Below are positions 46,250 to 56,814 of a stretch of DNA of 56,814 nt, piece by piece. This DNA comes from Candidatus Anaeroferrophillacea bacterium. GTDB lineage: Bacteria; Desulfobacterota; Anaeroferrophillalia; Anaeroferrophillales; Anaeroferrophillaceae. The stretch spans positions 1 through 56,814 of the forward strand of contig JAFGAM010000071.1 in NCBI GenBank assembly GCA_016933675.1, written 5' to 3'. The notes beneath the pieces are model-generated. The model had not been told where the DNA came from. It saw nothing but the letters and a program-made list of their open reading frames with translations, and ran no database searches. The first letter of the stretch is position 1, and every line of letters begins with the position of its first letter. Made by a program: the position numbers and the translations under genes.

Positions 46250-46762
46250 ATGCCCCCCACCTACGATCAGGACATCCTCCGCTCGCTGCGGCGCATCATC
46301 CGCGCGGTCGATCGCTACAGCCGCAAACTGAGTCGGGTATTCAACCTCACCGTGCCCCAGATCATCACCCTCCACCAGCTGCACGAGGGCGGCGAATGCA
46401 CCGCCGGTGAACTGTCGAACCGTGTCTGCCTGAGCCAGGCCACCATGACCGGCATCGTCGACCGTCTGGAGGCCCGGGGTCTGCTGCGCCGGGCGCGCAG
46501 TGCCGACGACCGCCGCCGGGTGATGGTCGACCTGACCCCGGAAGGACGCGAGGTCATCAGTATTATGCCGCCGCCGCTGCAGGAGCAGTTCGCTGTCCGC
46601 CTCGCCGCCCTGCCCACCGAAGAGCAGGAAACCATCAACCGCACCCTGGCACTCATTGTCGAAATGATGCAGGCCGAGGACATCGATGCCTCGCCCATTC
46701 TGACCACCCAGGACGTGGAACACCTCCCCGACGAACGTCCCCCAACCACCAAAAACATCTAG
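46250..46762 (+). CDS. MarR-family regulator, probable controller of betaine uptake
   Basis: A 170-residue MarR protein: the N-terminal dimerisation helix (DILRSLRRIIRAVDRYSRKLSRVF), winged helix (CTAGELSNRVCLSQATMTGIVDRLEARGLLRRARSADDRRRVMVDLT) and C-terminal helices. It is followed after 146 bp by proV-proW-proX. MarR-type regulators of compatible-solute genes are known in other bacteria, so osmotic control of the transporter is a reasonable inference. A consensus promoter and a partial palindrome at the start site suggest autoregulation. The C-terminal tail (DVEHLPDERPPTTKNI) is polar and family-atypical. Confidence 0.88.
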   Translation: MPPTYDQDILRSLRRIIRAVDRYSRKLSRVFNLTVPQIITLHQLHEGGECTAGELSNRVCLSQATMTGIVDRLEARGLLRRARSADDRRRVMVDLTPEGREVISIMPPPLQEQFAVRLAALPTEEQETINRTLALIVEMMQAEDIDASPILTTQDVEHLPDERPPTTKNI

Positions 46763-51891: not shown

Positions 51892-53520
51892 ATGTGTACT
51901 ATCTGCGGTCATCTGGTCCATCAGGGAACGATGATATCAACCGACATCTTTGACATGCTGATGAAGATGGCCCACCGCGGCCCCGACCAGCACGGGGCCT
52001 GCCTCGACGGCGAATCACGCCGGGCGGCGGAAATCGACGAACTGAAAGACTTCTTCTCCCGTGAAAGCCGCATCGCCCTCGGTCACTCCCGCCTCCGCAT
52101 CATCGGCGACGAGGGCACCACCCAGCCCTACGTCTCTTGTGACGGCGCCCTGACTCTGATCCACAACGGCGAAATCTACAACTACCAGAAACTCCGCACC
52201 CTGCTGCGCCGCCGGCACACCTTCAGCACAGCCAGTGACAGCGAGATCATCGTCCACCTGCTGGGCGAAACCTACCGCGGCGACCTTCGCGAAGCGATGG
52301 AAAAGGTGGTCAGCCTGCTTGACGGCATGTACGTCATCGCCGTGACCGACGGCAAATCGGTGGTCCTGGCGCGGGATCCCATCGGCAAGAAGCCGCTCTA
52401 CTACCTGACCACGGAACGGGTGACCTACTTCGCATCGGAGAAAAAATCGCTGTGGAACGGTACCGACGAACCCGTACGGCTCAACCCCGGCGAATTGCTC
52501 ACCCTCGATGACAGCGGGGTTGCGGTGGGCAACGGTTACAATCTGCAACTGCCGCAGATCGATATTGTCGACTTTCGCACCGGGATCGAATCCTACAAGG
52601 AAGCCCTCATCACCGCGGTACGGAAGCGGCTCACGGGTCTGAAGGAGTCGGCCATCGGGGTGATCTTCTCCGGCGGCATCGACTCGGTGCTGGTGGCCAA
52701 ACTGCTGCAGCGGGAAGGCAAGAACGTCATCTGCTACTGCACCGGCACTGAGGAATCGGGCGACATCGTCGCCGCCCGTTCGGTGGCGAAGGATCTCGGC
52801 CTGCAATTGAAAACCACCATCATCGACGAGGCCCTGGTGGAAAAGGCCATTCCCGGCATCATCCACGACGTCGAGGAGTGCGGCCTTTTGCAGGTGGAAG
52901 TGGCAATCCCGATGTACCTGGCGGCAAAGCTGGCCGCCGAGGATGGCATCCGGGTGATGTTCACCGGCCAGGCGGCGGACGAAATCATGGCCGGCTACCC
53001 GTGGTACAATGACGTCCTCGAAGAACACGGCTACCTGCGACTGCACGAAAAGCTGTGGGAGGACCTCAGTTTCCTCTACACCGACACCCTCGAGCGGGAG
53101 GACAAGCTGACCATGGCCCACTCCATCGAGTTGCGCGCCCCCTACCTCGACCGGGACGTGATCCATACCGCCATGCGCATCTCCCCGCGGCTGAAGATCG
53201 AGAGTGAGCGCGATATGCTCCGCAAACGGGTTCACCGCCAAGTGGCTTCGGAACTGGGAGTGCCCGATTACCTCTCCTACCGGATCAAGGATCCGGCCCA
53301 GTCGGGCTCCGGCATCCACCGCATCATCGAACGCATCGCCGCCCGCCGCATCATGGCGAACGATGTGGACGAGGATCTGGTGGACGAAAACATCGCCCGC
53401 GACAAGGGCAGCCTCTATCGCTACGGCGACCCCAGCTACGGCGGGGACGCGCCGCGTTTCTATCTCCAGCAGATCGAGGAGGAGATCAAACAGAAATACA
53501 TTCCGGCATTCCTGAAATAA
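51892..53520 (+). CDS. Asparagine-synthase-like glutamine amidotransferase
   Basis: A 542-residue protein of the AsnB architecture. The class II glutaminase domain starts at Cys2 (MCTICG, where AsnB has MCGI), with HRGPDQHG, GHSRLRIIG, IHNGEIYNY and the SDSE segment. The synthetase domain has the pyrophosphate loop FSGGIDS (259-265), FTGQAADEIMAGY (358-369) and ELRAPYLDRDVI. All catalytic elements seem present, so it likely amidates a carboxylate via an acyl-adenylate. The acceptor need not be aspartate, because the following gene encodes a nitrilase-type amidase, an odd partner for simple asparagine synthesis. GGAGG lies upstream of ATG 51892. The upstream gap carries a family A repeat. Confidence 0.88.
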   Translation: MCTICGHLVHQGTMISTDIFDMLMKMAHRGPDQHGACLDGESRRAAEIDELKDFFSRESRIALGHSRLRIIGDEGTTQPYVSCDGALTLIHNGEIYNYQKLRTLLRRRHTFSTASDSEIIVHLLGETYRGDLREAMEKVVSLLDGMYVIAVTDGKSVVLARDPIGKKPLYYLTTERVTYFASEKKSLWNGTDEPVRLNPGELLTLDDSGVAVGNGYNLQLPQIDIVDFRTGIESYKEALITAVRKRLTGLKESAIGVIFSGGIDSVLVAKLLQREGKNVICYCTGTEESGDIVAARSVAKDLGLQLKTTIIDEALVEKAIPGIIHDVEECGLLQVEVAIPMYLAAKLAAEDGIRVMFTGQAADEIMAGYPWYNDVLEEHGYLRLHEKLWEDLSFLYTDTLEREDKLTMAHSIELRAPYLDRDVIHTAMRISPRLKIESERDMLRKRVHRQVASELGVPDYLSYRIKDPAQSGSGIHRIIERIAARRIMANDVDEDLVDENIARDKGSLYRYGDPSYGGDAPRFYLQQIEEEIKQKYIPAFLK

Positions 53521-53525
53521 ACCGG

Positions 53526-53621
53526 CAGTGTCGGGTATGCTTTTTGCGGAACAATCCTCAACGGGTCGGGCTCGGCACTGAGGCGGAAGTCACGAGGCAA
53601 TAATCATACCGGATATCACTG
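53526..53621. repeat. Dispersed repeat family B, inverted-repeat element
   Basis: The left arm CAGTGTCGGGTATGCTTTTT and right arm AATAATCATACCGGATATCA are imperfect inverted complements about 95 bp apart. The same left/right layout occurs at 36896-36979, and left-arm or right-arm relatives occur at 23618-23650 and 42593-42615. Confidence 0.65.
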
Positions 53622-53632
53622 GAAATAAACCT

Positions 53633-54502
53633 ATGCATATCTGTATCGCCCAAATAAACTACTGCGGTCGCCACATTCAGACCCACGTCGGCCGTATCAA
53701 GGAGATTATTGCCCGGAACCGGCACGCCGATCTGCTGGTGTTCCCGGAGCTCATCCTCCACGGCCACCCATCCTTCGAAAAACCGGAGGGATTTCTCTAC
53801 CGGCGCATGCAGGTGGTCTACCGGACCATTTCCGAGGATCTTTACCGGTACGTCCGGCAGCAGGACGCCCGGGTGATCATCGGCGAGATCAAACGCCGGG
53901 GCACCCGGTTTTACAACCTGGCGACCTACGTCGACCGCCACGAGGTGCAGCACTACACCAAAACCCACGTCCACTGGACCGAACAGTTCGTCCCCGGGCG
54001 CGAGCTGAAGGTGTTCGAAACGCCGATGGGCAAGCTCGGCATCAACATCTGCTTCGACGCCGCCTTCCCCGAGGTCTGGCGGGTGCTGGCCCTCAGGGGG
54101 GCGGAGATCATCGTCAACATCTCCGCCGTACCGCGGGATTTCCCGATGGACTACATGTGGCGCCGGCTCAAGGGGGCGGCGCTCAACAACCAGGTCTACT
54201 GCATCTACGCCAACCGGCCGGGACCGACCTTCAGCGGCTACAGTGCCGTCTTTACCCCGCGGGGGGAGGTGCTGGCCGGTACCGCCCGCGACGAGGCAAT
54301 ATTCGGCACCGACATCGATCCGGGCGCCGTCAGCCGCTGGCGCGCCGAGGAGCAGATATTTCCTCACCGCCGGCCGCTGCTCTACCGCGACATCGGCCGC
54401 CGACAGCCGGAAACCGCCGAGCCGGGTGGAGAGGCCGAGGATATCCCCGACAACAGCCACCAGTTGCGCCAGGTCACGGAGACCGGTATCGGCAACAGGT
54501 GA
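53633..54502 (+). CDS. Carbon-nitrogen hydrolase (nitrilase superfamily amidase)
   Basis: A 289-residue enzyme with the complete nitrilase triad: Glu39 in LLVFPEL, Lys110 in YTKTHVHW, and the nucleophile Cys140 in GINICFDAAFPE. Other family segments are RGAEIIVNISAVPRDFP and NNQVYCIYANRPG. It should hydrolyse or transfer an amide; relatives include N-carbamoylputrescine amidase, beta-alanine synthase and omega-amidase. It lies 112 bp after the amidotransferase and 10 bp before a small ORF, so an operon is likely. A counterbalanced amide-forming/amide-breaking pair, or glutaminase-like supply, are both possible. The C-terminal ~35 residues are polar and probably disordered. Confidence 0.87.
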   Translation: MHICIAQINYCGRHIQTHVGRIKEIIARNRHADLLVFPELILHGHPSFEKPEGFLYRRMQVVYRTISEDLYRYVRQQDARVIIGEIKRRGTRFYNLATYVDRHEVQHYTKTHVHWTEQFVPGRELKVFETPMGKLGINICFDAAFPEVWRVLALRGAEIIVNISAVPRDFPMDYMWRRLKGAALNNQVYCIYANRPGPTFSGYSAVFTPRGEVLAGTARDEAIFGTDIDPGAVSRWRAEEQIFPHRRPLLYRDIGRRQPETAEPGGEAEDIPDNSHQLRQVTETGIGNR

Positions 54503-54512
54503 AGAAGGAATT

Positions 54513-54680
54513 ATGATGTTTCAGTACTACGTCCTCTCCCCGCACATGACGCGGCGCGAAATTTTTGCCTTCGGCCGGCGGCGCTCCGCCGCCGGGGCCG
54601 ATATCGCGCCGCGATTGGACGAAACGGTGCGAATGCACCTGTTTTGCCCGGAGCGGCAGCTGGCGGCACCCCGTCAATGA
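54513..54680 (+). CDS. Small ORF, 55 residues, of unknown function
   Basis: ATG at 54513 preceded by AAGAAGGAATT, a good ribosome site. It encodes a 55-residue basic protein starting MMFQYYVLSPHMTRREIFAFGRRR. Its stop overlaps the next start (ATGA at 54677-54680), and it begins 10 bp after the amidase stop. This tight packing on both sides argues for real translation even though I recognise no family. It could also serve only to couple translation of the membrane protein downstream. Confidence 0.55.
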   Translation: MMFQYYVLSPHMTRREIFAFGRRRSAAGADIAPRLDETVRMHLFCPERQLAAPRQ

Positions 54681-55141
54681 ACTCATACCACATCATGCGT
54701 CTTCTTCCCCTGCGTGAACATTCGACCCTGCTCTGGTGGCTGGGCAGCCTGTCTTTGGTCACCTTCGTCGCCTCGCTGATCTTCATTCCGCTACTCGTCG
54801 CATGGATGCCGGCGGACTATTTCACCCGTAAGCGACCCTACTACCGCGGCCGCCACCCGTTAGTCCACTGGGCCATCCTGATCGCCAAGAACCTGTTCGG
54901 CGCCCTTTTCCTGCTGACCGGCCTGGCGATGCTGTTTCTCCCCGGTCAAGGGCTGATCACCATCGTCATCGCCCTCACCCTGCTCAACTTCCCCGGCAAA
55001 CGGCGGCTGGAATGTCGCCTCATTCGCCGCCCGGGTATAAACCGGGCAATCAACTGGATCCGCGCCCGGAAGGGCAGACCGCCGCTACTCATCCCGGAAA
55101 CGGACTGCGGCGAGGAACAGCCAGCGGAGCATGGCGGCTGA
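54677..55141 (+). CDS. PGPGW-type small membrane protein
   Basis: A 154-residue inner-membrane protein with two hydrophobic segments: about residues 19-43 (LWWLGSLSLVTFVASLIFIPLLVAW) and about 67-95 (AILIAKNLFGALFLLTGLAMLF). The short conserved turn FLPGQGLITIVIAL matches the position of the PGPGW motif that names the family (PGQGL here). The C-terminus is basic and cytoplasmic-looking (RRLECRLIRRPG, WIRARKGRPP). Function is unknown for the family. It is the last gene of the amidotransferase/amidase operon, coupled by ATGA to the small ORF. Confidence 0.75.
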   Translation: MNSYHIMRLLPLREHSTLLWWLGSLSLVTFVASLIFIPLLVAWMPADYFTRKRPYYRGRHPLVHWAILIAKNLFGALFLLTGLAMLFLPGQGLITIVIALTLLNFPGKRRLECRLIRRPGINRAINWIRARKGRPPLLIPETDCGEEQPAEHGG

Positions 55142-56129: not shown

Positions 56130-56814
56130 AAAAAGCTGTCGAAGCGAAAAAATGTGAAAAAAGTGCTTGACATTGCGGCGATTTTGCGCGGTTCGCCAAA
56201 GGCGCCGGAATCACGGATACACCACCAGCACGGAGCGAAAATGAACCGGCAGCTTTTCGTGCGGGGGCAAAACTGGGTCAGCCTGGGATTGACCCTGTCC
56301 CGGGAACGGCGCTCCGTGGCGGTCCCGGTCTTGTCCCGCCTGTCCCGATCCACCGGCAACAGCGGCAAGCTGGTTGCCGCCAAAACCCTTTTACGGGTGG
56401 TCAGGTCCGGATTCCGGGATCGCCTTGTAACGGTGCTGCTGGATAGCTGGTACATGCGCCGGAATCTGATCAAGCCGGCCCTGAACATGGGTTGCCAGGT
56501 CATCGGTCAGGTCCGCCGAGACACGGCCCTTTATGCACCACCGCCACCACACAATGGAAAACGTGGGCGGCCCAGGAAGTACGGTAGCAAACTCATGCCG
56601 GAAACGGTTGCCGCGTTCCCCGAAACGACGCGACAACTTTTTCTCTATGGAAAAGAGCAGACGGTGCATTACCGCAGCACCGAGGTACTGGCATATTTCC
56701 TTGGCGGCCAACGAGTAAGGGCGGTCTGTTCCCAATTGGAAAACAAGGATGGGACACGGCGTCAATCCCGGTTGATACTCTCTACCGACCTGACCTTGAC
56801 GGCGGAAGAAATCC
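56130..56814 (+). mobile_element. 5'-truncated DDE transposase (runs off the window)
   Basis: From about 56193 the frame matches the C-terminal two thirds of an IS transposase: KAPESRIHHQHGAKMNRQLF, RGQNWVSLGL, SGKLVAAKTLLRVV, VTVLLDSWYMRRNLIKPAL, VIGQVRRDTALY, GKRGRPRKYGSKL, LILSTDLTLTAEE. The first catalytic Asp region expected before KAP is missing or replaced (DIAAILRGS), and the frame has a stop at 56127-56129, so the N-terminal domain is absent. No terminal inverted repeat is visible on the left. The 3' end lies beyond the window. It is probably a remnant beside the TetR gene; the IS family cannot be named with confidence. Confidence 0.75.

Follow-up and report, generated by a model that had tools for sequence, protein, structure and literature searches.

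RESULTS

An AsnB-like gene and a nitrilase gene form a conserved two-gene unit

In the window, the whole stretch of 56,814 nucleotides that was analysed, a gene for an AsnB-like amidotransferase is followed by a gene for a nitrilase-superfamily amidase (Table 1), and the two are a real, conserved two-gene unit. When the nitrilase was searched in a GTDB-based genome collection, five loci were found, and the AsnB-like gene was directly upstream in all five. Within the phylum, the nitrilase was present in 14 of 395 genomes, including that of the window (E below 1e-40), and exactly those 14, which span 8 families, had the AsnB-like gene at more than 64% identity; neither gene was found alone. The next AsnB matches in the phylum were only 35 to 37% identical and are true AsnB. 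AsnB-query searches of four other classes gave the same picture, with the nitrilase adjoining in 18 of 18 matching genomes. The pair carriers total 22 genomes from at least nine families, among them the cultured Desulfocarbo indianensis (locus L039), and order and adjacency of the two genes were kept in each of the 21 genomes other than that of the window, with a spacing of -40 (overlap) to 150 bp, usually under 25 bp. Thus, the AsnB-like/nitrilase partnership that had been proposed from the sequence-only reading recurs well beyond its own genome. Adjacency is, of course, not proof of a shared pathway.

Table 1. Genes and spacer at the AsnB-like/nitrilase locus of the window
Feature	Position	Strand	Basis
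AsnB-like amidotransferase, 542 aa, MCTICG start	51892..53520	+	Pfam GATase_7/GATase_6 (PF13537/PF13522) and Asn_synthase (PF00733)
Spacer of 112 bp, AsnB-like gene to nitrilase gene	53521..53632	.	coordinates
Nitrilase-superfamily amidase, 289 aa, E39-K110-E117-C140	53633..54502	+	CN_hydrolase (PF00795), 98 bits
55-aa ORF, vestige of a UgpC/MalK-type ABC-transporter ATPase, no working part of the unit	54513..54680	+	
PGPGW-family membrane protein, neighbour outside the conserved unit	54677..55141	+	PF09656, 29.8 bits (cut-off 23.3)

The nitrilase was absent from the 21 other genomes of the window's own class. This patchy occurrence speaks for horizontal transfer or for loss on more than one occasion. 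The base composition of the pair did not stand out, and a plasmid collection gave distant matches only, in which the AsnB-like protein reached no more than about 30% identity. A Recombinase-domain fragment (PF07508; L057:253-606) lies upstream of the pair in genome G322, which is consistent with mobility. A search of the open-access literature found nothing relevant on an AsnB-nitrilase operon.

Neighbouring genes are not part of the core

The AsnB-like gene, the nitrilase gene, a small ORF and the PGPGW gene had been read as one tight unit. The short junctions are indeed there, a 10-bp gap (54503-54512) between the nitrilase gene and the ORF and an ATGA overlap (54677-54680) between the ORF and the PGPGW gene, but only downstream of the nitrilase, and the AsnB-nitrilase junction is the wide one. 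The ORF itself is not a member of the unit. It gave no domain in a Pfam scan, matched the Q-loop region of ABC ATPases (NCBIfam PotA model, 3.2e-5) and aligned to residues 79 to 109 of the orthologous ATPase of G322 with a score of 67 (maximum of 46 in 2000 shuffles). These matches rule out a new small protein and identify the ORF as what is left of an ABC-transporter ATPase gene. The operon of G322 continues after the pair with genes for a solute-binding protein and two permeases and closes with one for a UgpC/MalK-type ATPase; the same arrangement was seen in G337 and G653, and a permease and an ATPase were identified after the pair in G534. A broken ATPase gene directly follows the nitrilase gene in G437, with its N-terminal half missing, a frame change and a stop inside, and its best match was the ATPase of G322. 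Since the importer is intact in some relatives, broken in G437 and reduced to a Q-loop scrap in the window, it is an optional, decayed part, and the asn-nit pair is the core.

No homologue of the PGPGW protein was found near the pair in the 21 other loci, and the gene has to be taken out of the unit. The same holds for the suggested link with the upstream betaine transporter and porin: neither the porin nor the transporter, as a unit, accompanies the pair in any of the 21 other loci, where the only neighbours matching the betaine-transporter region were generic ABC ATPases and MarR regulators. A MarR-family regulator is encoded upstream of the betaine transporter in the window (46250-46759), and G256 has a MarR gene 38% identical to it immediately before the pair (L061:10063-10638). 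Directly upstream of the pair in another locus is a deoxyhypusine-synthase-like gene (PF01916; L063:14579-15634, minus strand), and L092, from the same genus, has a matching gene about 110 bp before the pair; its best NCBIfam model, below cut-off, is a homospermidine biosynthesis protein, a possible polyamine link. In G144, a true AsnB gene follows a betaine/choline-type ABC transporter, made up of an ATPase and a permease-binding-protein fusion, at a distance of 8 bp (L110:1824-5715), an unusual arrangement of AsnB and an osmolyte transporter. An ORF that is cut off by the right end of the window (56154-56813) looks like a transposase fragment, as judged by eye.

The AsnB-like proteins are a subfamily apart from AsnB

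The AsnB-like protein passed the broad model TIGR01536 (asn_synth_AEB; 318 bits, cut-off 267) and fell short of the AsnB equivalog PRK09431 by 228 bits (271 bits, cut-off 499). Trees were calculated for the 22 members, joined by relatives from E. coli, Parabacteroides and actinobacteria and by NAGGN-type relatives. The members were monophyletic (support 100/100), the stem leading to them is 3.9 to 4.4 changes per site long (two trees), and they fell outside the E. coli-type AsnB clade, whereas true AsnBs of the same phylum (G144 and G379) clustered with E. coli AsnB at 96/88 and passed PRK09431 with 548 and 602 bits. The tree comparison with AsnB and NAGGN synthetases that had been proposed as a check therefore places the protein in a clade of its own, not inside AsnB. 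The other branches are long, and the trees support no order among the deeper subfamilies. The genome of the window encodes a second TIGR01536 protein (426 bits). Judged by its sequence, the AsnB-like protein is distinct from housekeeping AsnB. Synthesis of NAGGN was also considered and rejected, since the score against the NAGGN amidotransferase model TIGR03104 was 174 bits (cut-off 570) and the loci contain no ngg acetyltransferase/synthetase or M42 peptidase.

The MCTICG start had been taken to set the protein apart from ordinary AsnB. It is a signature of the family; the telling differences, however, lie in the synthetase site. Three Cys residues do not vary among the 22 AsnB-like proteins, C281 and C283 (CYCTG) and C83 (SCDG); the CYC motif is missing from the reference AsnBs in the alignment.

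The synthetase site is altered and the glutaminase site is partly lost

The PP-loop SGGIDS is at residues 260 to 265, and in the family alignment SGGIDS, K466, R402, Q334-V-E336-V-A and Q360 were invariant in all 22 members. Two of these residues are fixed changes: Arg324 of E. coli AsnB is Glu (E336) and Glu348 is Gln (Q360), in 22/22. True AsnBs have T-I/V-R or L-V-R at the first place and Glu at the second, and those of the same phylum retain R and E at both sites. Glu348 of the E. coli enzyme corresponds to Glu364 of human ASNS, and the human variants E364A and E364Q showed no activity when given aspartate, ATP and ammonium (PMC6748925). Thus, the motifs that had been described as complete are complete in the glutaminase but not in the synthetase site, where E336 and Q360 replace the aspartate-site Arg and the catalytic Glu. 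The altered site suggests that the amide formed may be one other than asparagine. The second TIGR01536 protein of the genome has G and A at these positions, and many TIGR01536 proteins that are variable there carry the name asparagine synthase; since the wider family varies in this way, the product could still be asparagine. In the AlphaFold model of the AsnB-like protein, the synthetase domain had low confidence (pTM 0.49), which makes it unfit for placing E336 and Q360 in the pocket.

The window protein has all the residues expected of a class II (Ntn) glutamine amidotransferase: Cys2, the glutamine-binding Arg, Asn, Glu and Asp are present as C2, R67, N92, E94 and D116. Three of the 22 members have lost the catalytic Cys: L057 and L075 have Ser in its place, and L038 has Gly; G322 and G437 are among the genomes concerned. 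These three members form one group, with supports of 84/89 and 94/92 in the two trees, and Cys2 was possibly lost in a single event. The Arg that binds the glutamine carboxylate (R49 in E. coli) is missing in 6/22. Synthetase motifs and nitrilase tetrad were intact in the members with a lost glutaminase Cys or Arg, and mean pairwise identity in the family was 80% for the synthetase part and 68% for the glutaminase part. The three members without the catalytic Cys, with synthetase site and nitrilase unbroken, support the view that the protein's own glutaminase site may be dispensable in part of the family.

The nitrilase has a complete catalytic tetrad

The nitrilase belongs to the nitrilase superfamily (PF00795, Glu-Lys-Cys triad). 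The E39-K110-C140 triad noted from the sequence was borne out and extended by E117; all four residues were invariant in 22/22 nitrilases. The best matches of the fold model were the PH0642 amidase and Nit2, and NAD-synthetase domains were far weaker matches than archaeal amidases and Nit2. None of the NCBIfam equivalogs, including NadE glutaminase, deaminated glutathione amidase and carbamoylputrescine amidase, was reached at cut-off. The genome of the window has a separate Nit2-like protein, on C17.

DISCUSSION

Obligate pairing, conserved catalytic residues and an altered synthetase site incline us to the reading that the pair makes and handles a carboxamide, that the acid substrate of the AsnB-like enzyme is not free L-aspartate and that the nitrilase is its obligate partner. 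The AsnB-like enzyme would adenylate the carboxylate of a small acid and then amidate it, with ammonia released from glutamine at the N-terminal site of those members in which this is intact and drawn from elsewhere in the rest. The nitrilase would be an accompanying amidase, acting on the amide product or on an amide that supplies the nitrogen. The operon of some lineages is completed by an ABC importer of the carbohydrate type, of which the ATPase scrap alone is left in the window. That the substrate is not aspartate and the product an amide, what the nitrilase does, and that the two genes are cotranscribed are inferences. Of the dedicated amide-forming pathway that had been proposed, the distinct, recurrent AsnB-like/nitrilase pair stands; the small ORF, the PGPGW protein and the tie to transporter and porin fall away.

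If the pair were an ordinary asparagine synthetase with a diverged signature and an omega-amidase-type enzyme that cleans up alpha-ketosuccinamate, the transamination product of asparagine, one would understand the TIGR01536 score above cut-off, the Nit2- and PH0642-like fold of the nitrilase and the tolerance of the wider family to changes at the Arg and Glu sites. However, the wide miss of the AsnB equivalog, the position outside the AsnB clade, an E-to-Q change that inactivates human ASNS, and the presence of another TIGR01536 protein and a Nit2-like protein in the same genome make this quite doubtful. We give no more credence to the AsnB-like protein being a ligase or cyclase that joins an amine, like beta-lactam synthetase or the lasso cyclases, with a vestigial glutaminase domain. 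The loss of the glutaminase nucleophile in part of the family would fit, and CarA and beta-lactam synthetase, ligases of this kind with known structures, were matched by profile, but the glutamine site is complete in most members and no peptide precursor or biosynthetic genes were found near the loci.

Rather unlikely, but less so than these two, is that the nitrilase acts like a glutaminase and is the subunit that feeds ammonia to the synthetase, as in two-subunit or fused NAD synthetases, and that the Ntn glutaminase is becoming redundant. In Thermus thermophilus, a clustered nitrilase-type G-subunit and NadE form a tight complex and can use glutamine (PMC3376133), a precedent that goes well with the 1:1 pairing and with the retention of synthetase motifs and nitrilase tetrad in members without the catalytic Cys. 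On the other hand, the Ntn Cys is kept in 19/22, which would put two glutaminases side by side, its loss was perhaps one event and the closest relatives of the nitrilase are not NAD-synthetase domains. That the pair is a heteromeric amidotransferase of a kind not described before, with the nitrilase coming to replace the decaying Ntn glutaminase as nitrogen supplier of an AsnB-type synthetase whose amide is not asparagine, we consider unlikely; if true, the architecture of the NAD synthetases would have been invented a second time, independently.

With the preferred reading of an amide-forming pair, the obligate pairing and the two synthetase changes on the stem branch predict that no asparagine is made from aspartate and that an amide pool depends on both genes. 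Such proteins pass NCBI's broad asparagine-synthase model, and a distinct two-gene system would be hidden behind it. The members without the glutaminase Cys are a natural test of how amidotransferases switch their nitrogen source.

Compared with AsnB (E. coli, 1ct9; human ASNS, 6gq3), the AsnB-like protein shares the domain order, the Ntn glutaminase, the SGGxDS PP-loop and the equivalents of E. coli K449 and R387. It differs in being only about 26 to 27% identical, in the invariant replacements of Arg324 and Glu348, in an insert of about 20 residues after HRGPD, in the CYC motif at 281 to 283, in missing PRK09431 and in always being paired with a nitrilase. The NAGGN amidotransferase is likewise of the AsnB type and has a substrate other than aspartate, as proposed here for the AsnB-like enzyme, and the Azospirillum protein also has Gln at the Glu348 position, but the model score and gene neighbourhood are different and the two are not sisters at useful tree support. 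As for the importer, the ATPase of UgpC/MalK-type carbohydrate transporters is what the 55-aa ORF matches; the operons that follow the pair in four relatives are intact or partly identified, unlike the remains in the window and G437. The nitrilase has the fold and the E-K-E-C residues of the Pyrococcus nitrilase-amidase PH0642 (1j31, 3ivz, 6ypa) and of the Nit2 omega-amidase, but is 27 to 28% identical, has distinct GHPS..PEGFLYR and HVHWTE motifs and is linked to an AsnB-like gene. The two-subunit glutamine-dependent NAD synthetase differs in that the synthetase here is an AsnB-type enzyme that has an Ntn glutaminase of its own and the nitrilase is closer to the PH0642 amidase than to the NadE glutaminase; common to both systems is the gene for an adenylating amide synthetase beside that for a nitrilase-superfamily amidase (PMC3376133).
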